From the IMG/VR virus record IMGVR_UViG_3300027573_000105, positions 1 through 25,683 of that record: 25,683 bases of DNA, one strand, 5' to 3'. Below, piece after piece: positions 1,126 to 24,022 of this stretch; the first letter of the stretch is position 1; the number at the start of each line of letters is the position of its first letter. Position numbers and translations under genes: made by a program. The notes under the pieces were generated by a model, which had not been told where the DNA came from, did no database searches, and worked only from the letters and a program-made list of their open reading frames with translations. Origin of the DNA: a virus.

Positions 1126-1134
1126 TTTAGGCTA

Positions 1135-1764: not shown

Positions 1765-2096
1765 GACAGCGCCAGCCAATTATACTACGTAAAGTAACCG
1801 TAGCGATTGACCCGACAACCGGGCGCAACGTGGAGGCGCAGGACGAGGACCCGACCGGCATTTATAGGACGTGGGCGGAAGTAACCGGATCCGGCGGCGG
1901 GCGGGACTACTTGAACGGACAAATAGGTTTAACGCATACCCGCGATTTTTTAGTACGATTTCGTTTTGATAAATTCCCGAATTGTGAATGGAAAATAACT
2001 TACCAGGGCACACCGTGGACCGTTTCGAATATTCGCAGGGTGGATGAAAAGAAATTTTACTGGCAATTCACTGCAACACGTAAAAACGATGGTTAA
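1755..2096 (+). CDS. Head closure / head-tail adaptor (SPP1 gp16, HK97 gp7-like)
   Basis: 113 residues, the usual size for head-closure proteins (about 100-120). The pattern is typical: a short N-terminal beta strand (IILRKVTVAIDPTTG), a mid-region TWAEVTGSGGGRDYLNGQI, then THTRDFLVRFRFDKFPN, and a final strand pair around WTVSNIRRVDEKKFYWQFTATR. These proteins cap the connector ring and dock the tail. Start ATG at 1755 overlaps the connector stop by 10 nt, and its own stop overlaps the preferred start of the next gene by 8 nt. Function assigned from family pattern and position; no catalytic residues are expected. Confidence 0.8.
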   Translation: MGIGQRQPIILRKVTVAIDPTTGRNVEAQDEDPTGIYRTWAEVTGSGGGRDYLNGQIGLTHTRDFLVRFRFDKFPNCEWKITYQGTPWTVSNIRRVDEKKFYWQFTATRKNDG

Positions 2097-3140: not shown

Positions 3141-3160
3141 ACCGTTTAAAATTTAATATT

Positions 3161-3628: not shown

Positions 3629-3631
3629 TTT

Positions 3632-4012: not shown

Positions 4013-4338
4013 ATTTTGATGAAATAGAACAAATACTTTTTGGTGAACTTTTAATAAGGCCGTGGGAACTGGCAAAAATGACTTTTCGCGAGGTCATTTT
4101 AAGTATAAACGGGTTACGAAACAGGGACAAAATGCTGGAAGCATGGCAGCGCCGAAGTACTTTTATTATTGCCAGTACGAATTTTGGCGGTAAAGGGGTG
4201 GCAAATAAGATGGAAAAACTCTGGCCTATTGAAGGCGTAGACCGCGTAAAGGTGAACCAAAAGGCAAAAGACCAATTACGCAAACTACGTGAAATGGAAG
4301 CGGTAAAAATAGCGCAGGCAAAAGAAAAACTTTTATAA
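3988..4338 (+). CDS. T domain of the tail chaperone, made as a gpGT-like -1 frameshift fusion
   Basis: This frame has no ATG until 4078, yet it is open and protein-like upstream of it (TDQPIDFDEIEQILFGELL, then IRPWELAKM). That supports reading by frameshift from the gpG-like gene rather than independent initiation. The fusion would be about 235 residues: ~121 from the first frame, then ~114 from this one. The T part contains FGELLIRPWELAKMTFREV, a pattern like T domains that start with a short helix ending in a P.E..kmT stretch, and closes with a highly charged helix (KDQLRKLREMEAVKIAQAKEKLL). In lambda the T domain contacts tube subunits while G coats the tape measure. The stop directly abuts the tape-measure ATG at 4339. 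Confidence 0.7.
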   Translation, partial: KKKTDQPIDFDEIEQILFGELLIRPWELAKMTFREVILSINGLRNRDKMLEAWQRRSTFIIASTNFGGKGVANKMEKLWPIEGVDRVKVNQKAKDQLRKLREMEAVKIAQAKEKLL

Positions 4339-6270: not shown

Positions 6271-8880
6271 ATGATAACTAACTGCACACTATACGAAGGC
6301 GCTTTTATTAATACGGAAACAACGCCGGAGCCAGCCAACGAAAACGTACAAAAGATATTTACGGTTAGGCTATTTGATACCGAAACGGAAGTAAGCACAC
6401 CGCCGTATAATTTCCGCTTTATCGTTTCCAACAACGGCGACGGTACGCAAACCGTTAGCGTTTTTTCGGATCCGTTTACCGATCCGCTGGCGGAAATTTA
6501 TTTTGGCTACGATAACGCGGGCTGGATAGACACGGCGTTAAACCTGAACGGCCGGACCGCTATTACCATACCGCAAGGCGATTGGGACTATTCCGTATTG
6601 ATTGCCAGCGATAGCGGCGCACCGCGTTACGAATTTGAACCAGCGGAAACTATAGACCTGGAAATGGGAGAAACCCCGATACTTATTTCGGTAGTAGATA
6701 ACGCAGAAGATAAGTTTACCCCAATTAAAAGCAAGCAGGTAGAGATACAAATCCACAGTAACGACGCCATAGGCATAGAAACCTTTGCGGAAGGTGGCGA
6801 TAATCGTTTTTATGTGGAGATAGAAAGCGAAACAGACGGCGTAATTTTCAAGGGCTGGTTATCTACCAGTGATTTGAGCCAGGATTTTTTACCGGATCCC
6901 AACGTTTTGACGCTAATAGCTACCGACGGATTGGGGTTTTTGGAAGACGAGCCTTTGCTAAACTTCGAAGACGTAACGCCTCAGGACCGCCACCAAATTA
7001 TTGATTTCATTGTATGGGCGTTAGGCAAAACGGGCCTTATGCTGGACGTAAAAGTTTGTATGAATATTCGCGAAGTGGCGGCCACGCCGATAGTCAGTGA
7101 TGTAGACGGCAGCGGACATTTTTATAAATTCGTGTACCTGGACGCCAAAACATTCGAAAAGGAGATAGCGACCTGCGAAGACTGCCGGACGGTTTTAGAA
7201 AAGATATTAGGCGAGAACGCTTTTTTAACGCAGTACCGCGGCAAATGGCTAATAATACGACCGGATGAAATGGAAACTGGGCACGAATATTATTTTACCA
7301 GGTTTAATTATTTAGGTGATTTTGTAGAGAACACCGACGAAACTTTCAGCAAAAATATCGGCGTAGGGCTGCCGCTGGCGTTTATGAATGACGACGCCAC
7401 GTTATCACTTGACCGACCTTATAAGCAGATAATAGAACGTTTTAACTACGACTACCCAAAAGAAATTATTTGTAATATTGATTACAGCCAGGGCGAATTT
7501 GTGGAAGATATGCCGGACGAAGTGAACGCGGACGGCGTTACCGAACAAGTTAAAAAATACACGTTGCCATGCTGGGCGCATTTATCGCGCACGGTAGACC
7601 TACCATACTGGGAGAATTTCGGACAAGGGCCGCTACCTTCATCAAACGTGTACGTAAAGCGCTATTATTTTAACGGCACAGAAACACAGCGTATAGTTGT
7701 GATACAGTCACCACCGGGCGCAGCGCCGCCAATGACGTACATACAAAGCACACCTATGGAACTACAGATAGGCGACAAAATAAGTTTACAGGTTAGTTTG
7801 TATTATACGAACATAGGCGCAAATACGGGCAGCAATAATTGGCCTGTTTATGTCGGTTTATTCGCGGACGACGGAGATATTTATTGGTGGCAAAATTATA
7901 ATGTTACCACGCCGGAAGTGCAGCCGCTTTGGGGGTTAACTCCACCAAACGTTTTAATTTACCCGTGGTATAAAGACGCGCTACTGGAAAATCCGCCGTT
8001 AGATATGCAATTTACCAGCCCGCCGCTACCTAAAAGCGGAAGGGTTTATGTTTTTCTGTCTAATGAGTATGGCGAAGAAATTGAGGCGAATTTCGGACAG
8101 CCAAAAATAGATATTATTCCTTTCGTTAACGGTGGCTATAACAGCTATAAAGCACAAACCAACGACGTAAGTCAGGACGCACCGAAGATAAAAGCCATAC
8201 GCGAAACGGACGTATATATAAGCGACGCGCCGCGTATAGCTATGAAAGGCGCACTATTGAAACCCGGCGCAGGCTTTGAGATTTTCAGCGGTACGGCGTC
8301 ATTTGGTACGTTAGGACAGTTTGAAATTAGCGGTAATATCGTCGGGTTATTTCCCGTAGGTATTTTAATTTCCATAACCGGATCCGGCAGTAACAATATA
8401 ACGGGCCGGATAATAGATAATAATTATTCCATAATTGGCGACCTTACCACAATTTATACGGATCAAACTACGGTAAGCGAATTAGGCGCCAGCATAACCG
8501 TAACGGAAGCAACTTACCAGTTAACCGGCGATTTTTATAACGCGGCGCTGGCAACTGCGGGCGGCGGTACGCCGTACACGTTCGGCCGTTTGCAGTCTTT
8601 TGATATTTGGAACCAGTTTAACCGGGTTATGCGCACGTTTGAGGCAACCATAGATAGAACGGACAGCGCTACACAACTGCCCGACCTTTTGCATAAATAT
8701 ATTTTACGAGACATAGACGCCAACACGACGAACGGTTCAACGCAATACCGTATTTTTATGCTATTGCATTACGAAATGAATTTGCATTTGTGCGAATGGG
8801 CGGCATTTTTACACGAAGTTTTTAACACCGACGTAGCCAAAAGCTACGAAACGGCGGCGTTTAAATATATAACCGAATAA
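6271..8880 (+). CDS. Large tail tip / hub-like structural protein
   Basis: 869 residues, directly after the tape measure where siphophages encode Dit/Tal-type tip proteins. The N-terminal ~180 residues are beta-rich. Around residues 215-360 the order TDGLGFLEDEPL, a helix (DFIVWALGKTGL), then TVLEKILGENAFLTQYRGKWLIIRPDE resembles the hub domain of gp27/Tal-like proteins, where a short helix and a final strand with W.I.. form the ring interface. The C-terminal half is beta-rich with a YKYI-like end and contains FNRVMRTFEATIDRT near residue 785. No enzymatic motif was seen. Probably the central tail-tip protein that contacts the cell; distant family membership should be checked by structure prediction. 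Confidence 0.6.
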   Translation: MITNCTLYEGAFINTETTPEPANENVQKIFTVRLFDTETEVSTPPYNFRFIVSNNGDGTQTVSVFSDPFTDPLAEIYFGYDNAGWIDTALNLNGRTAITIPQGDWDYSVLIASDSGAPRYEFEPAETIDLEMGETPILISVVDNAEDKFTPIKSKQVEIQIHSNDAIGIETFAEGGDNRFYVEIESETDGVIFKGWLSTSDLSQDFLPDPNVLTLIATDGLGFLEDEPLLNFEDVTPQDRHQIIDFIVWALGKTGLMLDVKVCMNIREVAATPIVSDVDGSGHFYKFVYLDAKTFEKEIATCEDCRTVLEKILGENAFLTQYRGKWLIIRPDEMETGHEYYFTRFNYLGDFVENTDETFSKNIGVGLPLAFMNDDATLSLDRPYKQIIERFNYDYPKEIICNIDYSQGEFVEDMPDEVNADGVTEQVKKYTLPCWAHLSRTVDLPYWENFGQGPLPSSNVYVKRYYFNGTETQRIVVIQSPPGAAPPMTYIQSTPMELQIGDKISLQVSLYYTNIGANTGSNNWPVYVGLFADDGDIYWWQNYNVTTPEVQPLWGLTPPNVLIYPWYKDALLENPPLDMQFTSPPLPKSGRVYVFLSNEYGEEIEANFGQPKIDIIPFVNGGYNSYKAQTNDVSQDAPKIKAIRETDVYISDAPRIAMKGALLKPGAGFEIFSGTASFGTLGQFEISGNIVGLFPVGILISITGSGSNNITGRIIDNNYSIIGDLTTIYTDQTTVSELGASITVTEATYQLTGDFYNAALATAGGGTPYTFGRLQSFDIWNQFNRVMRTFEATIDRTDSATQLPDLLHKYILRDIDANTTNGSTQYRIFMLLHYEMNLHLCEWAAFLHEVFNTDVAKSYETAAFKYITE

Positions 8881-9584
8881 TGGCAAACATAGTCTTGGGT
8901 AAAAACGTAAACGTAGAAGCGCTAATAGGTAGCGCCTATATGGTTATCGGTTGCGCCGTTTCATGTGCGTTTGAATTTGAAAACGAACTAATCGGAAAGA
9001 CGGACGTTAACGCAGGGCTATACCGTAAAAAGCGGGTACGTATTAGCGACAACCGCGGAAGCGTTAACGGGCTGGTAACTTTGGAAAACACCGCTACCAG
9101 GTTAAGCGCCTTTTATTTTTTACAGGAAGCTATAGTAAGATCCGAGCAAACAATGCGGTTTGTTTTCACAGACGAAGGCGGCGAAACTAAATACATAACC
9201 GGTACTTTTTTAGTACAATCCATTTCTATTACTGCCGATGTTTCGGCGTTTGCCGAATTTGACCTATCACTGGAAGGCACCGGCGGCGTAGAAATTGGCA
9301 CCGTAGAACCGCCGCCCGACGTATTTTGCCCCGAATTGCAAAGCGATACCTGGGAAACGACGGAAGGCGGCACGTCTATTAGCGGGCCGGGTATAGGCGG
9401 TAAGAGTTACGAAGGCGACGAAATACTGGTAGTCTTCAGGGAGGGCACACAGTTTGACTATACGGCCGGCGCACCGGGTAACCGTGAGTATGGCTACGAC
9501 GGCGTTAATATTTCCTTTGACCCGCTGAACCCGTTTAACCTGGATGAAAGGGTTAACGTCGTTTGGAAAGCATTTGAAAGTTAA
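8880..9584 (+). CDS. Tail protein with a tail-tube-like N-terminal domain
   Basis: 234 residues, start sharing one base with the preceding stop (TAATG). The first ~140 residues (AFEFENELIGKTDVNAGLYRK, ISDNRGSVNGLVTLENT, MRFVFTDEGGETKYITGTF, then SAFAEFDLSLEGTGG) resemble TP901-1-type tube proteins, which end in a strand reading FDLSLEGTG. From ~145 onwards a P-rich linker (IGTVEPPPDVFCPEL) leads into a glycine-rich beta domain. Because the main tube gene is at 3161, this one may build a specialised ring at the tail tip. No function is established; the similarity is judged by eye and needs profile comparison. Confidence 0.5.
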   Translation: MANIVLGKNVNVEALIGSAYMVIGCAVSCAFEFENELIGKTDVNAGLYRKKRVRISDNRGSVNGLVTLENTATRLSAFYFLQEAIVRSEQTMRFVFTDEGGETKYITGTFLVQSISITADVSAFAEFDLSLEGTGGVEIGTVEPPPDVFCPELQSDTWETTEGGTSISGPGIGGKSYEGDEILVVFREGTQFDYTAGAPGNREYGYDGVNISFDPLNPFNLDERVNVVWKAFES

Positions 9585-10445
9585 ATGATAAAAACACGAA
9601 CTTTTACGGCGGTTAACGGGCTGGACTACGTGCAGCACGCAGAACTGGCTTTTGCAACTATCTACATAGTGGCACGGGAAGGCGTAGAACACGAACCATA
9701 CACCGCCGGCGGGCCTGTTTATCGTACCTACATTCATACCGTATCAAACGGCAAAATAAACTTCCCGGCGATATTCGACGGCGGCACCGGTAACGAAAAG
9801 GTTTTTGTTTTATATAAACCGACCGGCGGCGCTGAACCAGTAGACCCGCCAGGCGTTTGCGTAGCTGGCACCATTGTACCGATTACTTTAGCGGATGCGG
9901 CAGACGGTCAGCTATACCTACAGACTATAACGCTAACAGGCACGGCGCCGTTTAGCCTGTCCGGTATAACGAAACCCGCCTGGCTAACTATAACGAACAG
10001 CGGCAACACTATAACGCTAACCGGCACGCCGGGACCTGGCGACGTTACCCTATCTACGTTAATAGAGTTTACAGTAAGTAATTGTAGCGGCGGATCTACC
10101 GTTTTATTTAGCCAGGAAATACAGGTTTTTGCAGCGGTTGCGAACTTCTTTATACAAAACACGGCTAACTTTTCAGTACAAATAATAGACGTTTTCGGAT
10201 CCTTTTACACCGTAAATCCGGGTTTTAGTTTTCCGGTTAATTTTTCGCAAACGCTGGAAGGAATACAAAGCGGAACGGCGGCCGCTATTACTTTAGATAT
10301 TAACGGCATTGTATTTCCGCAGGTGATAACGCTTTATAAAAACGCTGTACCTTTAGAAAGTAAAGTAGTAACGGTAAACGGTATAGAAAGCTTTGCGGCC
10401 GTTACTTTTACCAGTAGCGACGAGATGGTAATAACAATAACTTAA
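9585..10445 (+). CDS. Ig-like beta-sandwich tail protein
   Basis: 286 residues, start directly after the previous stop. N-terminal ~85 residues carry aromatic strands (YIVAREGVEHEPYTAGG, FPAIFDGGTGNEKVFVLYKP). After a short P/G-rich linker, residues ~95-175 form a putative-Ig domain: ITLADAADGQLYLQTITLTG, APFSLSGITKPAWLTITNSG and TITLTGTPGPGDV follow the he_PIG/cadherin-like order in which PAWL and GTP motifs precede the final strands. The C-terminal ~110 residues are S/T/F-rich strands. Ig-like domains on phage tails typically attach loosely to cell-surface polysaccharide. There is no signal peptide, unlike the following two genes. Confidence 0.5.
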   Translation: MIKTRTFTAVNGLDYVQHAELAFATIYIVAREGVEHEPYTAGGPVYRTYIHTVSNGKINFPAIFDGGTGNEKVFVLYKPTGGAEPVDPPGVCVAGTIVPITLADAADGQLYLQTITLTGTAPFSLSGITKPAWLTITNSGNTITLTGTPGPGDVTLSTLIEFTVSNCSGGSTVLFSQEIQVFAAVANFFIQNTANFSVQIIDVFGSFYTVNPGFSFPVNFSQTLEGIQSGTAAAITLDINGIVFPQVITLYKNAVPLESKVVTVNGIESFAAVTFTSSDEMVITIT

Positions 10446-10447
10446 TT

Positions 10448-12979
10448 ATGAAAAAACTACTTATTATTTTGCTCTTTTGCGGCGCAGCGGCGGTAAGCTA
10501 CGGGCAGTCAGGCTATACGACCATAAACGCACGCTATAACTGGTTAGGCGGTATCTTCAAAGCTTTGGGCATACCGTCCGGCGGTACTGCAGCATTTCAG
10601 AGTGGGCAGGCAGTAAGGGCTGGCGCCTTATATTATGACAGTACCGGCGTAGATAGCGGCCTTTATGTTTGGGGCGGGCTGTCCTGGCGCAATATTACAC
10701 CGGTAAGCGGCACAACCTACACTGCCGGAAGCGGTATCGGCATAAGCGGCGACAGTATCCATATAGGCGGCCGGACCTACGCACCGGCTATATTTTACGA
10801 CGAACGCAGCATAGTGCTAACCGGGCATTCTTTAAAAATAACAAGCGGCTACGCAGATACAACGGTGGGCGGCAATGCCGGTACTTATAGTTTTGCGAAT
10901 AAACCATATTCACCGCTACAGTTTGGCCGTATGGATAGTTTAACCGCCAACGACGTAGCGCTAAGTATTGTGCCGCTATCTACAATAAATTCTATTAGGA
11001 TAATGAAATACGGCAGCGGCGGGCTACATAATACCGGCATATTTGGCAACCGGTTTGCGTACTACCACTACGCCAACGATAGCGCCGTTATCCGTTCAAG
11101 TAGTACGTTTAATATGGCAATATCCGGCGAACAGCGGTTAAGGATAGATAGTAATTACAGCGGTACGCGAACAGTCTACCGAACCGGTACAAGTTCGTTA
11201 ACACGGTCCGAAGGCCCGGCGGCAATAGGCGCCAACACAGTTATAGATAATTTCGACGTGACTAAACATATTTTAGTTAGGGGTACGTTAAGCGGCTTCA
11301 CGTCAAAACTAAATGGGAGCTCCACGACTAACGACACAATAGAAAATTTTATTCATTTCAATACCTCCGTAAATATTGGAGCGCCGAATAAAGTACTTAA
11401 AATGTATGCGTTTGCACCTTCATTCCTTTACGGCGATAGCATTTTCGCATTTTTCGAAGACCAAACGACGGCATACAATTATTTTGCTAATGGCTTATCG
11501 TTAGGCGGCGGATATACCGGCATACGGCAGCAATTCAGAAATGAGTTTAACAGCGTATTGAATGACACCGTTACCATTAACACAATGACCGCCGTAACCG
11601 ATACAACCGGTTTTGATGTAGTGCTAAGACGCAGGACGGACGGCACGCTGGTTAAGATAAGGGCGGACCAGTTAGGCGTAGGCGGCGGCAGTGTTGGAAC
11701 TTTACAGCAAGTACTTGACGCCGGTAGCACGCTTACAAGTAACGAAACTATAGCCACCGGATCGAATACTCTACAGGTAAGTACTTCCACTGCAGCAATA
11801 ACGCCGTTTAACGTTAGTTCAAATACAGGGGCGGCGATTGTAGCCGCAAGCACAGGAACCGAACCCAGTATATCTATACAGAAAACGGCAAGCACAACCA
11901 ACACAATGACAACCGGCATGCGTTTAGGGCAAAACCCGTCCGGATCTTCCGCGAATGGTTTAGGTATAGGTCTACAGTTTAGAATAAAGGCGTCAGATAA
12001 CGGCACTTATGACGCCGGCGAATTTGGCGCAGTTTGGAGTGACCATACCGCAGCAAGCCGTACCGTTAACTATAATTTTAACGGCATGAATAACGCGGTA
12101 TCGCAAACTTTAATGAATATACAACCCGGCGGTATTGTGAGGGTGGATAATAACACGGACACGTTGGCAACCCGCGCAGACATTCGGGCCGCTACGCCGC
12201 TGGTAGGCACCTACGCGCAGCGCACAGCGATAACCGGCGCCGATGGGTACGAATTTTTCCAAACGGACGCACAGCGGGACGCACCGCCCGGCAGGTACTA
12301 TTTTATAAACACAAAATGGAATTATGTAAGACAGGCGGAAGAAAGGCTGGTTTACGATTTTAACGATTTCCACAGCATAGGCGCCGCCAATACTTTAGTA
12401 GGTAGTTATGTTTACACCGGTACAGGATCCGCCGTACCTGCAAACTACGGCGTATTAATGTCAACTTTAGCCAGTACGACAGGCCGCGTAGTATTTTACA
12501 GCGGTGCAAACGGTTTGTTTGGCGGTTGGGTGGACATGGATTTGGGCAGCGCATATATGAAAATACAACTCAACTTAACGCAACTTAGCACGGCGGGCGA
12601 AGAGTTTATTTTGAGGGTGGGTTTTAGCGATATGACGGCAGGCACCGAACCGAACAACGGCGTTTATGTAGAGTATGACCGTTTAAGTTCGGTAAACTGG
12701 CGCTACACACAGGCGGCCGGCGCAGGTACAAGAACCGAAACGGCAAGCAGCGCGGCGGTAGCTACAGGCAGTCACTATATAGAGGTATTTTGTCCAGGTG
12801 CAGGCGGTACGTCGGAATTTTGGGTGGACGGCGTATCCATAGGCACGCAGGCGGCAACTATGCCAACGGTAGTATTATCGCCGTTCGTGCAGTTCGTGAA
12901 GAGCGCAGGCAGCACACCGGTTACCTGCCAACTGGATTTTACAAAAACATGGCATTACTTAACAACATCAAGAAACTAA
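10448..12979 (+). CDS. Tail fibre-type protein with signal peptide and lectin-like C-terminus
   Basis: 843 residues. Residues 1-20 form a Sec signal peptide typical of Bacteroidota (MKKLLIILLFCGAAAVSYGQ). After it come fibre-like modules: AGALYYDSTGVDSGLYVWGG, then TYTAGSGIGISGDSIHIGG, a repeated-type knot motif seen in tail fibres, and a long G/S/T/N-rich beta region with SVGTLQQVLDAGSTLT near 420. From about residue 635 (RLVYDFNDFHSIGAAN) to the end, the pattern LVGSYVYTGTGSA, DMDLGSAYMKIQLN, RVGFSDM, YIEVFCPGAGGTSEFWVDG and IGTQ resembles a concanavalin/LamG jelly roll. Likely the receptor-binding fibre. The signal peptide is odd for a protein assembled in the cytoplasm. Confidence 0.65.
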   Translation: MKKLLIILLFCGAAAVSYGQSGYTTINARYNWLGGIFKALGIPSGGTAAFQSGQAVRAGALYYDSTGVDSGLYVWGGLSWRNITPVSGTTYTAGSGIGISGDSIHIGGRTYAPAIFYDERSIVLTGHSLKITSGYADTTVGGNAGTYSFANKPYSPLQFGRMDSLTANDVALSIVPLSTINSIRIMKYGSGGLHNTGIFGNRFAYYHYANDSAVIRSSSTFNMAISGEQRLRIDSNYSGTRTVYRTGTSSLTRSEGPAAIGANTVIDNFDVTKHILVRGTLSGFTSKLNGSSTTNDTIENFIHFNTSVNIGAPNKVLKMYAFAPSFLYGDSIFAFFEDQTTAYNYFANGLSLGGGYTGIRQQFRNEFNSVLNDTVTINTMTAVTDTTGFDVVLRRRTDGTLVKIRADQLGVGGGSVGTLQQVLDAGSTLTSNETIATGSNTLQVSTSTAAITPFNVSSNTGAAIVAASTGTEPSISIQKTASTTNTMTTGMRLGQNPSGSSANGLGIGLQFRIKASDNGTYDAGEFGAVWSDHTAASRTVNYNFNGMNNAVSQTLMNIQPGGIVRVDNNTDTLATRADIRAATPLVGTYAQRTAITGADGYEFFQTDAQRDAPPGRYYFINTKWNYVRQAEERLVYDFNDFHSIGAANTLVGSYVYTGTGSAVPANYGVLMSTLASTTGRVVFYSGANGLFGGWVDMDLGSAYMKIQLNLTQLSTAGEEFILRVGFSDMTAGTEPNNGVYVEYDRLSSVNWRYTQAAGAGTRTETASSAAVATGSHYIEVFCPGAGGTSEFWVDGVSIGTQAATMPTVVLSPFVQFVKSAGSTPVTCQLDFTKTWHYLTTSRN

Positions 12980-12983
12980 AACT

Positions 12984-13370
12984 ATGAAACAGCTATTAAT
13001 AAAATTCCTTTTACTTGTTACCCTTTTCATAGGTGTTAATTCTTTTGACGGCACCGGTAAAAACTTTGATGTACTATTAACGCAGCGCATTACGCCGGCA
13101 ACTGGATCCACGTTTAACCTTATCGCTATAAAGCAGGACGTTTTGGTTGTGGTGGATTTAGCGGCGACGATCGCACAGCTAAATGTACCGTTTCCCGCCA
13201 CGCCGGCAGATACGCAGTTAATCGGTTTTACTACGCGGTCAGCTATTACCAGTTTAAATTTTTTAGTTACTGGCGGTATACCAATAACGGCACCGGTTAC
13301 AACGTTAGCGGCGGGCGCCGTCGTTTGGTATATTTACAACGCGGACAGTAATCGCTGGTTTAGATATTAA
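12984..13370 (+). CDS. Small fibre-tip-like protein with signal peptide
   Basis: 128 residues. N-terminal MKQLLIKFLLLVTLFIGVNS is a signal peptide-like hydrophobic segment. The rest is a beta module with the order LNVPFPATPADTQLIGFTTR, SAITSLNFLVTGG, then TLAAGAVVWYIYNADSNRWFRY. This is the widespread phage fibre end module in which a P.dgQ.. loop, a GG turn and a closing W.R. strand are conserved. It follows the large fibre gene after 4 nt, so the two are probably co-translated and may assemble together. Function as tip or accessory fibre subunit is inferred. Confidence 0.5.
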   Translation: MKQLLIKFLLLVTLFIGVNSFDGTGKNFDVLLTQRITPATGSTFNLIAIKQDVLVVVDLAATIAQLNVPFPATPADTQLIGFTTRSAITSLNFLVTGGIPITAPVTTLAAGAVVWYIYNADSNRWFRY

Positions 13371-13382
13371 AACTCTTCCACT

Positions 13383-15155
13383 ATGGCAAATATAATTTTT
13401 AACGAAATACCGACCAGCGCCGCGGACCTGAACAACCCCGGCAGGGCGGTAGAACAATGGCACAACGCAAATGATGTAAACGTACCGACGGAAGGCGTAA
13501 ACACGCCGCGGCACGATTGTTACTACCGTTTTGTTTGGACAAAGATTGAAGGCAGGACGCAGGGCAGTTACGACTGGGGATATTTCGACGGGCTGGTAAA
13601 TGGCGCTATTTCCCGTAAACAAACTTTGTCGTTTGGTATTATGTCCGTTTTTCCCGGCAACGAAGTAGAGGCAGGCGGGCAAAGCTTTAGCACCGGCGGC
13701 GGCTATGGATGCTACCCTGAGTATATCCATAATAAAATGCAGACCGGCGCCGTAAAGGATTTTAAAAGCGGGCAGACCTGGACACCGAACTACAATGATC
13801 CGTTCTATGCGGAAAGGGTTTTGGCGCTATACCAGGCAATTAACGCACGGATCTACCAAATGAATTGGCAAAAGCATATTGGTATTATTGATGTTCGCAT
13901 GTATGGCGCATGGGGTGAATGGCATAGCGCATATTTGCCTAATAATAATGTACAGTTAGATTATCCGGCGGGTACCTTCCCGACGGTTGCCAGTCTTAAA
14001 AAGATAGTAGACGCGCATACGGCAGGTTTTCCAAATTTTCCGCTGGTAGCAATGATAGCCGGATTTGATGCGCACTATCTTCAAAACACATGGAACGACC
14101 CGGAAATTGCCTATTATCTTTTAACTACCCGTAACGCCTGGGGGCCGTTAGGCTGGCGCCGTGACCAGTGGGGAGCAACGGACAGCTATTTGGAAAGCTA
14201 CCTGGTAAACAATACCCGGACGTTTAACGGCGTACCGTTAAACAGTCTTATAATGGAGAAATGGACGGTAGCGCCAATAACAGGCGAACCGCCAGCCTGG
14301 AACCCCGGCGATTATTACGACTTAGAACGGCAAATAAAACTTTACCGGGCTACGTCGTTCGGCAACGGCAACTACGGCACGGTGCCAAACAGTACTATAA
14401 AAACACGGGTACGGGCCGCCAGTAAGCTTTGCGGTTACCGGTTTAAAATTACCAGCGCTACGACGACGGTAGACGCCGCAGGGCTAACCGTGGTAATGAA
14501 TTGGCAGAATATTGGAAACGGTAATGCCTGGCAGGACTGGGATATTGTTTTCAGTTTGGGTAATGTTAAGTTAACCAGCAAACATAAATTAAAGTTTTTT
14601 CAACCGGGTACGGCGCCCGTAGCAATTACCGACGTTTTCCCGTTAACCGCGGTACCTGCGGGCACGTATGCGCTAACGTTTGCGGTTAAAGATCCGGCAG
14701 GCGCACGGGTTAACATGGCGCTGGCAATTACAGGCGGCGACGCTAATAACGTTTACAGTTTGGGCAGCGTAGTAGTAGGCGCAACGCCGCCAGCGCCGAA
14801 CGTAGGGCCAACGGCGAACGCGGGCGGCGACATAGAAATAACTTTGCCGGTAAACAGCGTAACGCTACAGGGCAGCGGCACAGATACCGACGGCACGATA
14901 ACCGCCTACGCCTGGACGAAGGTTAGCGGCAGCGGTACGATAGCAACGCCGGCGGCAGCTATTACGCAGGTAACCGGGCTGGCGGCCGGATCCTCTATTT
15001 TCCGGTTAGGCGTTACGGACGACAAAGGCGCCACGGCGGCGGACACGGTAACGGTAAAGGTTAACGCGGCGCCAGTACCGCCAACGGAAAAACACGTAGT
15101 AGAAGTACGTCATAAAGTTGTCTACAGCGACGGCACAAGTGAAGATTTTAGTTAA
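13383..15155 (+). CDS. Putative virion-associated glycosidase (DUF4832-like TIM barrel) with PKD domain
   Basis: 590 residues. The first ~345 look like a (beta/alpha)8 barrel of the DUF4832/GH-like type: WTKIEGRTQGSYDWGYFDGL near 55-75, then IIDVRMYGAWGEWHSAYL near 168-184, where E179 inside YGAWGEWH is the candidate catalytic acid/base. Residues ~350-465 form a beta sandwich (VMNWQNIGNGNAWQDWDIVF), as is usual after DUF4832 barrels. Residues ~476-562 (PTANAGGDIEITLPVNSVTL ending VTDDKGATAADTVTVKVNA) are a PKD domain. Tail EVRHKVVYSDGTSEDFS ends the chain. Its place after fibres suggests a tail-borne enzyme that trims surface glycan; this is an inference, the substrate is unknown and there is no signal peptide. 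Confidence 0.6.
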   Translation: MANIIFNEIPTSAADLNNPGRAVEQWHNANDVNVPTEGVNTPRHDCYYRFVWTKIEGRTQGSYDWGYFDGLVNGAISRKQTLSFGIMSVFPGNEVEAGGQSFSTGGGYGCYPEYIHNKMQTGAVKDFKSGQTWTPNYNDPFYAERVLALYQAINARIYQMNWQKHIGIIDVRMYGAWGEWHSAYLPNNNVQLDYPAGTFPTVASLKKIVDAHTAGFPNFPLVAMIAGFDAHYLQNTWNDPEIAYYLLTTRNAWGPLGWRRDQWGATDSYLESYLVNNTRTFNGVPLNSLIMEKWTVAPITGEPPAWNPGDYYDLERQIKLYRATSFGNGNYGTVPNSTIKTRVRAASKLCGYRFKITSATTTVDAAGLTVVMNWQNIGNGNAWQDWDIVFSLGNVKLTSKHKLKFFQPGTAPVAITDVFPLTAVPAGTYALTFAVKDPAGARVNMALAITGGDANNVYSLGSVVVGATPPAPNVGPTANAGGDIEITLPVNSVTLQGSGTDTDGTITAYAWTKVSGSGTIATPAAAITQVTGLAAGSSIFRLGVTDDKGATAADTVTVKVNAAPVPPTEKHVVEVRHKVVYSDGTSEDFS

Positions 15156-17850: not shown

Positions 17851-17946
17851 TCACAAATTTCGGTTTTTGTTGTCAAGATCCTGCCAGTAACTTACTACCC
17901 ACAGCGCCGCGGCGAAAATGACCGCCATTATTATTGCCGTTACCAT
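17851..17946 (-). CDS. 31-residue membrane microprotein
   Basis: Starts at the ATG whose first base is 17946, overlapping the stop of the gene upstream as ATGGTAA. The sequence begins MVTAIIMAVIFAAALWVVSY, a single hydrophobic helix, and ends with a charged tail (WQDLDNKNRNL). Too short for standard gene callers, but its overlapping start repeats the arrangement used one gene earlier at 18278, and it precedes a terminator by 28 nt, so real translation is plausible. One-helix phage microproteins may act as membrane toxins, antiholins or superinfection blockers; no function can be assigned. Confidence 0.5.
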   Translation of the reverse strand: MVTAIIMAVIFAAALWVVSYWQDLDNKNRNL

Positions 17947-18278
17947 TGGGAAGCTTTTAAAAGTTCTTTGTGATAAAATTTGAGATCACGTAAAGAAAGC
18001 GCCTTATTTTTTAAATCCGGGTGTGCGTCCGAATTATAATTAAGGCGGCAACGTATTGGCCGCGTAGCGCCCACACCTTTTACTTTACGGCCTAAATAAA
18101 CGTCTATAGTTACGCCTCTTTCTACGTCTTTAAACGTCCCGTAGTTTTCATACCCGCCAACGCCTATTTTCCTATTTAGCGCAGGCCAATTACTAAAAAT
18201 AAACTGCGCAATATCCCATTTATTTTTAAATCCTTTGGTTAGAGCGGATTTTCTAAACCCGTATCTTGTTTTTACCAT
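17940..18278 (-). CDS. Hypothetical basic protein of the minus-strand group
   Basis: 112 residues from the ATG at 18278 (MVKTRYGFRKSAL...). A longer form from 18296 adds six residues, but 18278 gives the ATGGTAA overlap with the gene before it, the same junction as at this gene's own stop. The chain is basic, with FKNKWDIAQFIFSNWPAL in the first half, GVGGYENYGTFKDVERGVTI and YLGRKVKGVGATRPIRCRLN in the middle, and a lysine-rich end. No family recognised. Likely cytoplasmic, perhaps nucleic-acid binding given the charge; this is only a suggestion. Confidence 0.6.
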   Translation of the reverse strand: MVKTRYGFRKSALTKGFKNKWDIAQFIFSNWPALNRKIGVGGYENYGTFKDVERGVTIDVYLGRKVKGVGATRPIRCRLNYNSDAHPDLKNKALSLRDLKFYHKELLKASQW

Positions 18279-18397
18279 TGTGTAGCTTTTAAACATTTAA
18301 TTTTACGGCGGTACGGGCGGCACAGCGACCAGCTAAAGAAGACCCAAAAGGCGGCCGATAACACGACCATAATTAAAAGGGAAATGATGTATAACAT
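18272..18397 (-). CDS. 41-residue membrane microprotein
   Basis: Begins MLYIISLLIMVVLSAAFWVF at 18397, a strong hydrophobic helix, followed by FSWSLCRPYRRKIKCLKATQ and a last W. A basic tail after the helix predicts N-out or N-in single-span topology with the positive side cytoplasmic. Its stop overlaps the start of the next gene as ATGGTAA, and it lies 10 nt after the preceding gene. The ends KATQW and, in the next gene, KASQW are encoded by nearly the same DNA, so the junctions look duplicated. Function unknown. Confidence 0.5.
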   Translation of the reverse strand: MLYIISLLIMVVLSAAFWVFFSWSLCRPYRRKIKCLKATQW

Positions 18398-18407
18398 AAG
18401 GATTATT

Positions 18408-18596
18408 TTAAATGTTGTCGTATATTAAGCAGCATAAACTATTGTGAATGTCGAAACCTTTATATTGCTCAAAGCTTTCGTATTTACCGCTATTTAAAAA
18501 CCGCTTTGCTTTAGCCTTAATTTTCGGAGCAGTTTCTTTGCCCTTATAATCTTCTGGCGTTAAACTATCAAGAAATTTTTTTAAATCGTTTGTCAT
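18408..18596 (-). CDS. Small hypothetical protein, first of the second minus-strand transcript
   Basis: 62 residues, beginning MTNDLKKFLDSLTPEDYKGK and ending GFDIHNSLCCLIYDNI. The middle is K/A-rich and helical (PKIKAKAKRFLNSGKYESF). No recognised domain. A good Bacteroidota promoter with an operator-like palindrome inside it lies directly upstream (18616-18647), leaving a leader of only ~13 nt. The gene probably heads a four-gene transcript that includes the two microproteins. Confidence 0.6.
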   Translation of the reverse strand: MTNDLKKFLDSLTPEDYKGKETAPKIKAKAKRFLNSGKYESFEQYKGFDIHNSLCCLIYDNI

Positions 18597-18615
18597 ATTA
18601 CCCGTTTTGATTTAT

Positions 18616-18647
18616 CAAAAGTAGGTATTGTTTCCGATACGTCCAAA
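18616..18647 (-). promoter_or_regulatory. Bacteroidota-type promoter for the small minus-strand genes
   Basis: Read on the minus strand: TTTG (18647-18644), a 20-nt spacer, then TACTTTTG (18623-18616), an exact match to TAnnTTTG. Transcription would start about 7 nt later, leaving ~13 nt to the ATG at 18596. The spacer holds a palindrome (18624-18641), so a bound repressor would cover the promoter. Confidence 0.65.
18624..18641. promoter_or_regulatory. Operator-like palindrome, copy 1
   Basis: GGTATTGTTTCCGATACG: half-sites GTAT and ATAC separated by 8 nt. Same length, spacing and GGTATTG start as the copy at 18874. It occupies the spacer between the -33 and -7 elements of the promoter at 18616-18647. 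Confidence 0.6.
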
Positions 18648-18650
18648 CTT

Positions 18651-18836
18651 TTAGGCAACTTTCTTTTTACCAGTTTTCCCGCCGTAGTTGTCCGGGACCT
18701 GGATAACGTAAACTTTACCGAATTGCAGCGTAGTGATTACGCCGGGTAAATTGTGTTTGCGCCGGATTGCCTTACGCACACCGTCCGGCGTAATGCCTCT
18801 AATATCCGCGTATTCCTGAACCGTTAAATTTTTCAT
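18651..18836 (-). CDS. Small HTH DNA-binding protein (excisionase/MerR-like), likely regulator
   Basis: 61 residues from the ATG at 18836. A start at 18857 would add seven residues, but these lie close to the promoter and the shorter form begins in the family-typical way (MKNLTVQEYADIRGITPDG). Residues ~5-24 form the helix-turn-helix: TVQEYADIRGITPDGVRKAI, followed by a wing-like strand pair (GVITTLQFGKVYVIQVPD) and a basic tail (GGKTGKKKVA). Such short winged-HTH proteins act as repressors, activators or excisionases. Its gene lies between two copies of an 18-bp palindrome, one in its own promoter and one in that of the next transcript, so it probably controls both. Convergent evidence is from sequence layout only. 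Confidence 0.65.
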   Translation of the reverse strand: MKNLTVQEYADIRGITPDGVRKAIRRKHNLPGVITTLQFGKVYVIQVPDNYGGKTGKKKVA

Positions 18837-18854
18837 CCTGTTATTAATTTTGCA

Positions 18855-18884
18855 CAAAGTATAAAATTTATTTGGTATTGCAAA
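18855..18884 (-). promoter_or_regulatory. Promoter-like element for the HTH gene
   Basis: Read on the minus strand: TTTG (18884-18881), an 18-nt spacer, then ATACTTTG (18862-18855). The TTTG of the -7 box matches the Bacteroidota consensus but its first two bases are AT instead of TA, so this is weaker than the promoter at 18616. The -33 TTTG lies inside the palindrome at 18874-18891. Confidence 0.45.
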
Positions 18885-18891
18885 AAATACC
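18874..18891. promoter_or_regulatory. Operator-like palindrome, copy 2
   Basis: GGTATTGCAAAAAATACC: a perfect 6-bp inverted repeat (GGTATT/AATACC) with a 6-nt centre. Sits in the divergent region between the HTH gene (minus) and the first early gene (plus), covering the -33 element of the HTH promoter-like sequence and lying 20 nt before the + start codon at 18911. Confidence 0.6.
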
Positions 18892-18910
18892 TTTTAATTT
18901 CGGTGGCGTT

Positions 18911-19144
18911 ATGGATAAAACTAAACTTGTACCGTTATCTAAATTATTCAGGGGCCAGTATTTCCGGCAAAGCGGAAAACTTTATATAGTATTGCAAAAG
19001 CGCTACGGCGTTATTACCTACGCAAACAGCTACGCCTATAAACGGACAGGGCATTGGTCCAATAAGAAAACAATTAATTGTAAAGGCAGTCAACTTGTAG
19101 AGCAGGTAAAAATCGAAACAATTTCACAAACAAATAAAAAGTAG
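18911..19144 (+). CDS. Early hypothetical protein, first gene of replication arm
   Basis: 77 residues from the ATG at 18911 (MDKTKLVPLSKLFRGQYFRQ). A TTG start at 18872 would add 13 residues across the palindrome and is less likely. The pattern QSGKLYIVLQKRYGVITYAN, then YKRTGHWSNKKTINCKGSQL, is a small basic beta domain without a known family. It lies divergently to the HTH gene, so the palindrome between them may control both. The stop is 4 nt before the next gene. Function unknown; early phage accessory protein is the likely class. Confidence 0.6.
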   Translation: MDKTKLVPLSKLFRGQYFRQSGKLYIVLQKRYGVITYANSYAYKRTGHWSNKKTINCKGSQLVEQVKIETISQTNKK

Positions 19145-19148
19145 ACAA

Positions 19149-19523
19149 ATGGAAATTACCATTCATTTAAAAGTATCGGCCGACGGCATTTTAGCGGAAA
19201 TTCTAAAAAGTGCAATGAAACACGCAAACGCAGAAACGGCCGCCGAACCAGCAAAAGAAGTAAAAGCTAAACCCGCAAAAGCTGAAGTAACGGACGAAGA
19301 GGCGGTAAAGCCTGAACCTAAAAAGAAAGCGGCGCCAGCGAAGACCGAAGCGCCTAAAATAGGGCTAACTGATATTCGTCAGTATGCCGCAGCAACGCCT
19401 GAACGTAAAGCGCTTTTACGCGAAATACTAACCGGTTACGGGCTGGAAGAGCCTAAACTACAATTCTTACCAGAGGAAATGTATGAAGTATGTTTTAAAG
19501 CTTTGAAAGATGGCGACATTTAA
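19149..19523 (+). CDS. Early hypothetical protein with A/K/E-rich linker
   Basis: 124 residues in three parts: a short beta/helical start (MEITIHLKVSADGILAEILK), a low-complexity linker (~30-70) of A, K, E and P, e.g. EPAKEVKAKPAKAEVTDEE, and a helical C-terminus (IGLTDIRQYAAATPERKALL, EPKLQFLPEEMYEVCFKALK). The two-domain layout with a flexible linker is common in phage proteins encoded next to DUF2800 nucleases and ssDNA-binding proteins. It overlaps the DUF2800 gene by 14 nt, so the two are translationally coupled. It could be a recruiter in recombination; this is only inferred from position. Confidence 0.55.
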   Translation: MEITIHLKVSADGILAEILKSAMKHANAETAAEPAKEVKAKPAKAEVTDEEAVKPEPKKKAAPAKTEAPKIGLTDIRQYAAATPERKALLREILTGYGLEEPKLQFLPEEMYEVCFKALKDGDI

Positions 19524-20694
19524 GCCAAACGGTCACGCCGTACTATCTGCCAGCGGCGCCGCCCGCTGGTTAGCCTGTACGCCGTCTGCCAGGCTGGAAG
19601 AGGGTTTACCGGACACTACCAGCGCCGCGGCGGCAGAGGGCACGCTGGCGCACGCCATAGGCGAATTATTAATAGCCAGGGACGCCGGGAAGATCAGCAA
19701 AGTTGACTACGCTTTTAAAGTAACGCCGTTAATTAATGACAGCCTGTATACGCCGGCAATGATGGGACACTTGGAAGATTACGCCGCCTTTGTTTTAGAG
19801 CGCTACAGCGCAGCGCAGGCAGCTACAAAGGACGCCATACTGGAACAAGAGATTGAAGCGGATTACAGCCGCTACGTACCTGAAGGCAAAGGAACTTTAG
19901 ATAACAGTATCATAGCCGACGGCACGCTGGAAATAATTGATCTGAAATTCGGTAAAGGGGTAGAAGTATCGGCGGAAAACAACCCGCAAATGAAACTTTA
20001 CGCATTAGGGGCGCTGGAAAAATACGACTGGCTGTATACAATCGACCGGGTTAAAATGACAATTTACCAGCCGCGTATAGACAATTTTTCAACTTGGGTA
20101 ATTACCGTTAAGGACCTGCGCGAATGGGCGGAAGGCGAACTAAAGCAAAAAGCAGATTTAGCGTTTAAAGGTGACGGCGATTTTGTACCCGGTAAGCATT
20201 GTCAGTTCTGTAAGGTACGGGCAACCTGCCGGGCAAACGCAGCCTACCAAACCGACATAGCACGCACCGACTTTTTAGAACCCGTCTTATTATCTGACGC
20301 AGATATAGCGGACATTTTAACGCGGGCGGCGCAGTTTGAGAACTGGCTAAAGGCGGTAAAAGATTACGCGCTAAACGCAGCGGTAAAGGAAGGGCGGAAA
20401 TTTCCAGGCTTAAAGTTGGTAGAAGGCCGAAGCAATAGGGTTTACGCGGATCCGGTAAAGATAGCGGACGTATTAACCGCGGATGGCTGGACCGAAGCGG
20501 ACATATTCGAAAAGAAACTTTTAGGCGTAACGGCTATGCAAGGCGTACTTAGCAAAAAGGTTTTTGATAACTTAGTCGGCCCGTATATTATCAAACCGCC
20601 GGGCAAACCTACTTTAGTACCGGACAGCGATAAACGGGCCGAACTAAATAGCCTGGACGCGGTACGGGCGGATTTTGAGATAGACGATTTATAA
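19510..20694 (+). CDS. DUF2800 nuclease, Cas4/RecB-like PD-(D/E)xK with four cysteines
   Basis: 394 residues, the usual DUF2800 length. The N-terminus SASGAARWLACTPSARLEEG contains the helix seen in Cas4-like nucleases and C23. The nuclease core has GTLDNSIIADGTLEIIDLKF, giving D144-L-K146 of the D...(D/E)xK site, then KGVEVSAENNPQMKLYALGA (with the QxxxY helix). Three more cysteines, C231, C234 and C240 (CQFCKVRATC), with C23 form a likely 4Fe-4S site, as in Cas4 and AddB. The protein probably acts as a recombination/replication exonuclease. It is followed by the ssDNA-binding gene (DUF2815), a pair that recurs in phage replication modules. Confidence 0.85.
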   Translation: MATFKPNGHAVLSASGAARWLACTPSARLEEGLPDTTSAAAAEGTLAHAIGELLIARDAGKISKVDYAFKVTPLINDSLYTPAMMGHLEDYAAFVLERYSAAQAATKDAILEQEIEADYSRYVPEGKGTLDNSIIADGTLEIIDLKFGKGVEVSAENNPQMKLYALGALEKYDWLYTIDRVKMTIYQPRIDNFSTWVITVKDLREWAEGELKQKADLAFKGDGDFVPGKHCQFCKVRATCRANAAYQTDIARTDFLEPVLLSDADIADILTRAAQFENWLKAVKDYALNAAVKEGRKFPGLKLVEGRSNRVYADPVKIADVLTADGWTEADIFEKKLLGVTAMQGVLSKKVFDNLVGPYIIKPPGKPTLVPDSDKRAELNSLDAVRADFEIDDL

Positions 20695-20743: not shown

Positions 20744-21298
20744 ATGTCAAACGAAAAAGCAGTAAGTAAAACGAAAGTAGTAACCGGCGAAGTTCGGTTA
20801 AGTTATGTAAATGTGTGGGAACCGTCCGCAGCGAAGGGCAGCACAGAAAAGAAGTACAGCGTTTGTATTATGATCCCTAAAAAAGACAAAGCGCTATTAG
20901 CCCGCGTAAACGCCGCTATTGAGGCAGCAAAGATTGAGGGCAAGGAGAACAAATGGAAAGGTAAAATACCTTCCAAATTAGATTTGCCTTTACGGGACGG
21001 CGACGATGAAAGGGACGGCGAAGAGTTTAAGGGGATGATGTTTATTAATGCGAAGGGTAAACGCCAGCCTGGTATTATCGACAAAGCCGGCAACCCTATT
21101 ATCGAGCGGGACGAATTTTACAGCGGCGTTTTCGCAAAATGTGCAATTAACTTTTACGCGTATGATGTAGACGGCGGTAAAGGCGTAGCCTGTGGGTTGA
21201 ATAACCTTATGAAGACAAAGGACGGCGAGAACCTGTCCGGCGGTAGTTCAGCGGCGGACGATTTCGCAGACGATATAGTGAACGACGACGATTTGTAA
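20744..21298 (+). CDS. ssDNA-binding protein, DUF2815
   Basis: 184 residues. The start TGEVRLSYVNVWEPSAAKGS, followed by KKYSVCIMIPKKDKALLARV, is the DUF2815 signature (a T7 gp2.5-like OB fold). Later parts EFKGMMFINAKGKRQPGIID and FYSGVFAKCAINFYAYDVDG complete the fold, and the last ~16 residues are acidic (SAADDFADDIVNDDDL), the typical tail that contacts polymerase and nuclease partners. It binds and protects ssDNA during replication and recombination. It lies between the DUF2800 nuclease and the DNA polymerase and ends shortly before an intrinsic terminator, so its transcript is probably the early one with the two preceding genes. Confidence 0.85.
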   Translation: MSNEKAVSKTKVVTGEVRLSYVNVWEPSAAKGSTEKKYSVCIMIPKKDKALLARVNAAIEAAKIEGKENKWKGKIPSKLDLPLRDGDDERDGEEFKGMMFINAKGKRQPGIIDKAGNPIIERDEFYSGVFAKCAINFYAYDVDGGKGVACGLNNLMKTKDGENLSGGSSAADDFADDIVNDDDL

Positions 21299-21565: not shown

Positions 21566-23488
21566 ATGCAAACCCTATCTATCGACATAGAAACCTACAG
21601 CGAAACGGATATAAAAAGCGCCGGTACTTACCGCTATTGCGAAGATCCGGCGTTTACTATTTTATTGTTCGGCTACGCTATTGACGGCGGGCCTGTGCAA
21701 ATGATAGACTTAACCGTGGAAAACCTGCCAGCGGAAATAGTAGCGGCACTAACGGATCCGACAATAAAGAAAACGGCGTATAACGCAGCATTTGAACGGA
21801 TATGTATTTCGGCGTACTTAAAAACGTATCTGGACCCGGCAGAGTGGTTTTGTACTATGATACATGGAGCCTATGCCGGTTTACCGTTTGGCCTTGACCT
21901 GGTAGCTAAAGTTCTAAACTTACCGCAGGGCAAATTGGCCGAAGGCAAAGCGCTGATTAAATATTTTTGTACACCGTGCAAGCCTACAATAATTAACGGC
22001 GGACGTACAAGGAATATGCCGTGGCACAACGGCGAAAAATGGCAGCGGTTTATTGATTACTGTAAACAGGACGTTAGGCTGGAAATGCAAATATTTAACC
22101 GGTTGTCGTTTGTAGAAATAACGGACAAAGAGCGCCAACTATGGGCGCTGGATCAGCTTATAAACGACCGCGGCGTTTTACTGGACACGCGGCTAATTAA
22201 CCAGGCAATAGGCATAGACCGGCAAAACGAAACGGATTTAATAATAGAGGCAAAACAGTTAACCGGGCTGGAAAACCCAAACAGCGGCGCACAACTTAAA
22301 AGCTGGTTAGGCACCGACACGCTAACCAAAGCAGGCGTTAAGGATCAGCTAACGACGGCAACCGGTAAAGCTAAAAGAGTTTTACAGATACGGCAAGAAC
22401 TGGCGAAGACATCGAATAAAAAATGGCCCGCTATGCTGGATTGCATAAGTGCAGACGGCCGGGCACGCGGTTTAATACAGTTCTACGGCGCAGGACGAAC
22501 CGGCAGATGGGCGGGCCGGCGCATACAGCCGCAAAACCTACCAGGCATTCAGCTAAACGATAACGACCTGGACACGGCGCGGCAAATAGTTTCAGCGGGT
22601 GACAGCGAAGGGCTAAATATGTTTTACGGAAACATACCCGACACGTTAAGCCAGCTTATCCGAACGGCGTTTGTAGCTGAACCCGGAAAGCTTTTATATG
22701 TTTCCGATTTGTCAAGTATTGAGGCCCGGATTACGGCATGGCTGGCGGGCGAGACCTGGCGCCTGGACATATTTAAAACACACGGCAAGATTTACGAAGC
22801 AAGCGCCGCCGCTATGTTCAAGGTACCGATTGAACAAGTAAGCAAACCGCTACGGCAAAAGGGCAAGATAGCCGAACTGGCGTTAGGGTATCAAGGCGGC
22901 GTAAATGCGCTTTTAACTATGGGCGCTTTAAATATGGGTATATCGGAGGACGATTTGCCCGGGCTGGTTACAGCATGGCGGGCCGCCAGTCCTAATATCG
23001 TTAAGTACTGGCGCACTATACAGGACGCGGCATTTGCGGCGGTAAACGACGGCGCCAAAATAGTAACGCCTAAAAACGTAGTTTTCCAGGTCATCAAAAA
23101 CGTTTTATTTATTACCTTACCGTCGGGCAGAAAGCTGGCGTACCTGCGGCCGAAGATCACCGCCGGACGCTACGGCGACGTAGTAAGCTACGAAGGCAAT
23201 ATCCAATTAACTAACCAATGGGGCCGGATAGAAAGCTACGGCGGCAAATGGGTGGAAAACATTGTTCAGGCTATAGCCCGCGACGTACTGGCGGAAGGCA
23301 TGTTGAGAGTTGACGCCGCCGGTTATCCTATTATTTTATCGGTACACGACGAAATAGTAATAGAGGCGGATAACTATAAAGAAACTAATTTAAGCCACAT
23401 TGTTTCCCTTATGGCTGCGCCTATCAAATGGGCGCCCGGTTTGCCGTTAGGCGCCGACGGGTTTGTAAATCACTATTATAAAAAATAA
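21566..23488 (+). CDS. Family A DNA polymerase with 3'-5' exonuclease domain
   Basis: 640 residues, a typical phage PolA size. The N-terminal exonuclease has DIETYSETD (D7, E9), then TAYNAAFERICI and an ExoIII-type YCKQDVRLEM. The polymerase part shows GAGRTGRWAGRRIQPQNLPG, motif A as SDLSSIEARITAWLAGE with D381, motif B as RQKGKIAELALGYQGG (R430, K434, Y442), and motif C as SVHDEIVIEAD (H594, D595, E596). DLSSIEAR replaces the textbook DYSQIELR, and YQGG replaces YG, as in other phage polymerases of this subfamily. There is no 5'-3' exonuclease domain. It would copy the phage genome with the VapE-type primase-helicase encoded downstream. Confidence 0.95.
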   Translation: MQTLSIDIETYSETDIKSAGTYRYCEDPAFTILLFGYAIDGGPVQMIDLTVENLPAEIVAALTDPTIKKTAYNAAFERICISAYLKTYLDPAEWFCTMIHGAYAGLPFGLDLVAKVLNLPQGKLAEGKALIKYFCTPCKPTIINGGRTRNMPWHNGEKWQRFIDYCKQDVRLEMQIFNRLSFVEITDKERQLWALDQLINDRGVLLDTRLINQAIGIDRQNETDLIIEAKQLTGLENPNSGAQLKSWLGTDTLTKAGVKDQLTTATGKAKRVLQIRQELAKTSNKKWPAMLDCISADGRARGLIQFYGAGRTGRWAGRRIQPQNLPGIQLNDNDLDTARQIVSAGDSEGLNMFYGNIPDTLSQLIRTAFVAEPGKLLYVSDLSSIEARITAWLAGETWRLDIFKTHGKIYEASAAAMFKVPIEQVSKPLRQKGKIAELALGYQGGVNALLTMGALNMGISEDDLPGLVTAWRAASPNIVKYWRTIQDAAFAAVNDGAKIVTPKNVVFQVIKNVLFITLPSGRKLAYLRPKITAGRYGDVVSYEGNIQLTNQWGRIESYGGKWVENIVQAIARDVLAEGMLRVDAAGYPIILSVHDEIVIEADNYKETNLSHIVSLMAAPIKWAPGLPLGADGFVNHYYKK

Positions 23489-23782: not shown

Positions 23783-24003
23783 GACAACAAAAAACATGGT
23801 TGACAGTTCACTTCATTGAAGGGGAGGCAGAAATAGAGGCAACGTTAAATTATGAAACCAAGTCGTATAATCTAACTCATGGCAACAATGACTGCAACGT
23901 TACTTTCAAAAGTGAATCGGGTGATAATATTAAGATTAGCCTTGATAGGGCGAAGTGTGTAACCGCAGCCCTTAAATTCATTCAAGCTGAACTTCAACTC
24001 TAA
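23779..24003 (+). CDS. Small A/T-rich orphan protein between direct repeats
   Basis: 74 residues (MRQQKTWLTVHFIEGEAEIE, then TLNYETKSYNLTHGNNDCNV, KFIQAELQL at the end), likely a beta-sheet with a closing helix. No family recognised. A/T-rich codons as in the gene before it. Both its own leader and that of the following HNH-like gene are the same 23-bp repeat. Loss of the gene by recombination between repeats would leave the next gene with an intact leader. Probably a mobile accessory gene. Confidence 0.55.
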   Translation: MRQQKTWLTVHFIEGEAEIEATLNYETKSYNLTHGNNDCNVTFKSESGDNIKISLDRAKCVTAALKFIQAELQL

Positions 24004-24022
24004 CTAAACTTAAATACTATGA
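24000..24022 (+). repeat. 23-bp direct repeat, right copy
   Basis: Second copy of the repeat at 23760-23782, located between the stop codon of the gene at 23779 and the first codons of the gene at 24019. It may act as a translation leader for the HNH-like gene. Confidence 0.85.

Follow-up and report, generated by a model that had tools for sequence, protein, structure and literature searches.

The question raised by this locus is what two 18-bp palindromes do on either side of a small regulator-like gene of a Bacteroidota phage, and which protein reads them. The palindromes lie at positions 18624-18641 and 18874-18891 of the IMG/VR virus record IMGVR_UViG_3300027573_000105, a genome fragment of 25,683 bases whose full length is called the window here, and a gene for a 61-residue putative winged helix-turn-helix (HTH) protein (18651-18836, minus strand) stands between them. 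Both palindromes were found where an earlier note on this DNA had placed them, no other exact match of the pattern GGTATTNNNNNNRATACS occurs in the 25.7-kb record, and the open reading frame (ORF) of the 61-aa protein, running from 18836 to 18651, is real. Both palindromes are very probably operators embedded in promoters. The compact two-site circuit that had been proposed stands insofar as the operators are promoter-embedded, but the sites are part of a dispersed set, with 11 members in four related contigs, and the overall reading favoured here, with reasonable confidence, is that these promoter-operators are held down by one repressor.

As written, the first site is GGTATTGTTTCCGATACG and the second is GGTATTGCAAAAAATACC. 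They had been described as twins, but differ in symmetry: the site at 18874 has perfect 6-bp arms, whereas the site at 18624 is an imperfect dyad with inner arms GTAT/ATAC and a mismatched outer pair. Read in promoter orientation (minus strand for 18624, which then becomes CGTATCGGAAACAATACC; plus strand for 18874), both have an AAA core. The exact form GGTATY-N6-RATACC is expected 0.013 times in shuffles of the window and was seen once; with either C or G permitted at the outer base, two sites were seen against 0.043 expected. When up to three mismatches are allowed, the window contains 26 copies against 23.4 expected, no excess over shuffles, so that the exact form alone is informative. A profile scan assigned 24.4 and 22.4 bits to the two sites and 9.1 bits to the next best place in the window; because both sites were in the training set of the profile, the informative part of this result is the gap to third place. 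Other viral loci, about 2.27 Mb in total, contained three unrelated exact sites, approximately one per 750 kb. Among the papers listed by a literature search, none was relevant to the palindrome as an operator.

The promoters of the window are of the TTTG/TAnnTTTG style of Bacteroidota, for which the sigma-ABfr consensus is quoted in PMC6847099. The criterion applied was TTTG at -33 and TAnnTTTG at -7 with approximately 19-21 bp between them; a sigma-70 promoter scan was set aside as not applicable to this phylum. Operator 1 (18624-18641, minus strand) fills the spacer of a leftward promoter (18616-18647, minus strand) and abuts its -7 element. This promoter, TTTG-N20-TACTTTTG, matches the consensus exactly, as had been claimed (exact promoters of this type are expected 0.57 times per shuffled window), and is predicted to drive a gene for a 62-aa microprotein. 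Straddling its -7 element and predicted transcription start is a second dyad (18606-18619, minus strand; TTTGAT-TT-ATCAAA in plus-strand letters), the sole match in its search, with 0.06 expected at one mismatch or fewer. Operator 2 (18874-18891, plus strand) lies in the spacer of a rightward promoter (18871-18902, plus strand), in which TTTG (18871-18874) is followed after N20 by TAATTTCG (18895-18902), one mismatch from the consensus, and then by an ATG at 18911. It also overlaps a promoter-like sequence of the HTH gene (18855-18884, minus strand; TTTG-N19-TACTTTG), of which the -7 element is one base short and the -33 element is inside the operator. The earlier note had assigned the second palindrome to this -33 element and had treated the rightward early genes as a possible side effect. 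The overlap is genuine, but the site best fits the rightward early promoter, to which the overlap is secondary; since it fills the rightward spacer, the rightward early operon appears to be its main target. A single protein bound at operator 2 could block both divergent promoters.

The same arrangement recurs in related phages. A search with the DNA polymerase of the window found IMGVR_UViG_3300009678_000117 (G001), which has a 79% identical polymerase and three palindromes, and pattern scans found two other contigs (L179 and L339) with primase-like, helicase, terminase and portal-region genes that closely match those of G001. These three contigs contribute three sites each, nine in addition to those of the window; the third site of L339 begins with A. 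The exact form is expected 0.010 times in shuffles of G001 and 0.007 times in shuffles of L179, and was seen three times in each; the recurrence of the site beside promoters in these phages is above chance by comparison with both shuffles and the other viral loci. All 11 sites have an ATG 12-30 bp downstream on the same strand, and in promoter orientation core positions 9-11 are AAA in every one of them (eight distinct sequences); by this orientation rule, site 18874 is placed on the plus strand. A -33/-7 pair brackets 10 of the 11 sites, often with an imperfect -7 element. In five promoters, designated class A (window 18624, G001 10017, L339 4515, and L179 4217 and 5238 in reverse-complement coordinates), the -7 element is exactly TAnnTTTG; at the other sites it is degenerate (TAATTTCG, TATATTCG, TATTTTAC). 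Outside class A, one site each stands before the rightward early operon (window 18874), an HNH-type gene (G001 3319-3336) and a small ORF (L339 3683), and three stand before a gene cluster that starts with a glycosyltransferase-like protein (G001 11003, L179 6331 and L339 5339). The 11 sites may be read as one dispersed operator set, and because related phages carry the same cassette before several operons and unrelated small genes, a set of genes in these phages is probably under a single regulator.

Membership of the set differs between close relatives, as the HNH-type gene has a palindrome in G001 and none in the window, where its homologue at 24019 (24003-24019) lacks a palindrome promoter. 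Of the check for conservation next to HTH homologues in related phages, the DNA side was borne out: the palindromes recur, though in contigs that do not cover the HTH locus. G001 spans from within the gene of the single-stranded DNA-binding protein (SSB) to within a homologue of window 9585-10445, and L179 and L339 span from the primase-like gene towards the capsid side, so placed that the HTH segment is outside all three. Searches for relatives covering the HTH locus with the DUF2800 protein, the polymerase (as a single sequence and as an alignment), a tail protein and the SSB found only distant phages there.

In the window as in G001, L179 and L339, the class-A promoter is nearly the same, but it is followed by unrelated first genes, so that what is conserved is the promoter/operator itself. 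These first genes encode unrelated proteins of 48-69 aa, and in the relatives a small lipoprotein gene is usually next. The second dyad, TTTGAT-NN-ATCAAA over the -7 element and predicted start, is present in four of the five class-A promoters (window, G001, L179 5238 and L339). The class-A promoter appears to be a cassette that can be reused with different accessory microprotein genes, and the site behind it is likely to be one of accessory-gene exchange. A blastn comparison of the cassette with isolate phages and plasmids gave weak partial matches alone. Most matches of a pattern combining ATACC and the second dyad in viral contigs (L335-L338, L340 and L341) are without the palindrome and were taken as chance.

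A mechanism that would account for this arrangement has one symmetric, dimeric repressor occupying both palindromes of the window, each in a sigma-ABfr promoter spacer. From operator 1 it would control the leftward microprotein unit, and from operator 2 the rightward early/replication operon together with the divergent HTH gene, by way of the covered -33 element. Once bound, it would keep RNA polymerase off the -33 and -7 elements, and the promoters would be held down together until the protein was diluted or lost. In the related phages the same cassette would control the glycosyltransferase operon, the HNH-type gene and various small, unrelated genes. That the sites serve to repress and not to activate, and that the promoters are co-regulated, is inferred here from the sequences. 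In having one type of site spread over the genome, which implies one regulator, the set resembles the stoperators of cluster A mycobacteriophages (PMC6550527, PMC9283540); however, stoperators are asymmetric and many and stop elongation, whereas the present sites are few, palindromic, and all in or beside promoters, and neither an immunity repressor nor an integrase was seen here. The divergent promoters with a common operator beside a small HTH gene recall the lambda-like CI/Cro switch, but no CI/S24 or Cro-type protein or integrase was found, the operators are single and not triplets, and in the relatives sites are also located far from the operon of the HTH gene.

As for the protein that binds, no integrase, CI, Cro, XRE or S24 protein was found among 37 non-structural proteins of the window and G001 (25 of 53 PHROGs families listed), an absence that is provisional because the window is a fragment; the combination of an integrase with a CI/S24-type repressor that characterizes a temperate immunity region is likewise lacking among the 37. 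DUF2442 and DUF2442-type HTH proteins, which were searched for separately, were not found in the phage contigs. The 61-aa HTH protein, the only HTH-like candidate seen besides the terminase small subunit, thus remains the only regulator-like protein seen, and is, tentatively, the most likely phage-encoded binder. A profile search matched it to HTH_17 with an E value of 0.14, which did not reach the cut-off. Its structure model has a strand-helix-helix-hairpin fold (predicted local distance difference test score, 61), the best whole-length fit to which is BldC (template modelling score, 0.55), with no match at E < 0.001. The predicted fold is thus like that of BldC and excisionase-type small HTH proteins, but the sequence match is below all cut-offs. 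No homologues of the 61-aa protein were found in IMG/VR, phage records or 395 Bacteroidota genomes.

Several observations weigh against this protein as the binder, or against a common repressor. The protein is short, with a disordered lysine-rich tail, and its model has no dimerisation helix at the C-terminus, which argues mildly against its binding a palindrome; BldC/excisionase-type domains often bind direct repeats, not palindromes. Recurrence of the sites was seen in contigs of relatives that do not reach the HTH locus. At G001 3319 the -7 element is TACTTTG and no good -33 element is present at 19-20 bp, and a palindrome in the spacer could equally suit an activator with MerR-type geometry.

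The same palindrome is present in bacterial genomes. A scan of 84,980 genomes, one per species, with the phage-derived pattern GGTATYNNNNNNRATACCTANNTTTG gave 102 stretches, of which 80 were listed (L194-L273); approximately 70 of these 80 are from Bacteroidota, mainly Bacteroidales. In 54 of the 80 listed stretches the palindrome is directly before genes of the Pfam families DUF4160 and/or DUF2442, a pair that has been validated in Dickeya as DhiTA, an autoregulated toxin-antitoxin system (PMC8198452). The palindrome arms and -7 element belonged to the search pattern; the core, the sole matching part outside it, did not. The resemblance to DhiTA promoters is specific. AAA at core positions 9-11 is found in 48 of the 54 DhiTA sites (16 of 22 distinct DhiTA cores) and in all eight distinct phage sites, but in only two of 25 sites with the same arms that are not associated with toxin-antitoxin genes. 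In score, the phage cores group with those of DhiTA and apart from those 25 sites (p 2e-4, which is optimistic since the phage sites are related). The modal spacing in DhiTA-type promoters where TTTG was found is N20. In a separate sample of DUF4160 genes, the palindrome precedes only the MPE[IL]FR-type subclass (both of the two parsed) and none of those parsed of other types. Within a promoter, GGTATYRAAAAYRATACC is probably the operator of the MPEIFR-type DUF4160/DUF2442 (DhiTA) subclass of Bacteroidales (L194-L273). The phage promoters have in common with these the GGTATY-N6-RATACC palindrome, the usual TTTG-N20-TAnnTTTG, the abutment to the -7 element and the orientation of the A-rich core; unlike them, they precede microprotein, replication, HNH and glycosyltransferase genes, and no DUF4160 or DUF2442 genes are present behind them or elsewhere in the phage contigs. 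ArsR-like genes of Pedobacter (L217:7764-7789 and L268:1128-1153) have a longer palindrome, GGTATTTAGGTAAATACC, that abuts the -7 element, a different operator with shared arms.

It is conceivable, if rather doubtful, that the protein reading the phage sites is a DhiA-like regulator (DUF2442/XRE HTH). It may be the antitoxin of a host DhiTA pair, a copy that stands alone in the host genome, or one that the phage encodes outside this contig, and the phage would in that case have recruited promoters of the DhiTA type. The 54 host stretches, with their agreement in register to the -7 element, N20 spacing and A-rich core, the resemblance of the cores and the autoregulation of the Dickeya system are in favour of this, and the same palindrome is carried by two other loci: in an Alistipes genome (L206:6968-7226) a solitary gene for a 76-aa HTH protein, homologous to the DUF2442 C-terminal domain, is behind the same palindrome promoter, and in an unrelated 61.8-kb Bacteroidota phage (G1183; L193:380-1457) two tandem palindromes stand 37 bp apart before a small operon, one product of which is an HTH protein with weak resemblance to DhiA. 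However, the phage core differs in detail (NNAAA[CA], as opposed to RAAAAT in DhiTA), and DhiTA proteins are themselves only presumed to bind precisely this palindrome. The host scan took in every regulator at once and so may match any of them by coincidence, a 5-bp half-site not being rare among thousands of regulators. Because neither the window nor G001, L179 or L339 encodes a DhiA-type protein, a phage-encoded repressor is kept as the leading reading, with a DhiA-like or host regulator as its main rival. It is improbable that a Bacteroidota phage genus has adopted the DhiTA operator-promoter as its own control cassette, with early, glycosyltransferase and swappable microprotein genes placed under a DhiA-type regulator and tied to the toxin-antitoxin state.

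The spacer placement of nearly all sites, the MerR/BldC-like predicted fold and several imperfect -7 elements (TAATTTCG, TATATTCG) would also suit an activator, a MerR/BldC-type protein that distorts DNA in the 19-20-bp spacer and so times early or middle genes. This is unlikely: the leftward promoter has a perfect consensus and should need no help, N20 is normal spacing in Bacteroidota, and the fold comes from a low-confidence model of a 61-aa protein without the MerR dimerisation helix. The non-canonical LexA boxes of Bacteroidota (PMC8565304) are likewise palindromic repressor sites in promoters, and promoter-embedded palindromes in a phage with Bacteroidota-type promoters could mean that a host SOS repressor renders the phage damage-inducible; but the symmetry in the window is even-centred, and the known motifs GGA-N5-TCC and CTAA-N5-TTAG have no match in the window, so that this explanation is largely refuted and almost certainly wrong. 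Related sites may go back to the duplication of a single promoter, and class-A promoters are near-identical over their full length; the repeats might then be chance, or mean nothing beyond shared promoter ancestry. This is very unlikely, given that the dyad arms are kept where the -33 element, -7 element and leader differ, at several genomic places.

Beyond model systems, little is known of how Bacteroidota phages control their genes. The sequence signature described here, which marks operator-bearing promoters and occurs upstream of interchangeable microprotein genes, offers a means of finding co-regulated accessory genes in phages that have not been cultured. Should the link to the DhiTA operator prove true, it would join phage gene control to a widespread and barely studied toxin-antitoxin family.

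Structural genes occupy 1-15155 of the window; after them come lysis-related genes near 17 kb, the short leftward cluster (17940-18836) and, from 18911 on, the rightward replication operon. No structured RNA was found in the region of the palindromes. A homology search for the host with a large protein (window 6271-8880) gave no match in 793 genomes of two orders, and is not informative as it had no positive-control signal. The leftward unit begins with the 62-aa microprotein gene (18408-18596, minus strand; ATG at 18596), for which no family was found, followed by a 41-aa ORF (18272-18397, minus strand), probably a small membrane protein (weak match, E 0.047), and a 118-aa ORF without assigned function (17940-18296, minus strand), for which a shorter start is also possible. 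First in the rightward operon is a gene for a 77-aa protein (18911-19144, plus strand), which would be near-leaderless if transcription begins at about 18907. Downstream on the same strand are genes for a DUF2800/PD-(D/E)XK exonuclease (19510-20694), an Enc34-type SSB (20744-21298) and the family A DNA polymerase (21566-23488) by which G001 was found.
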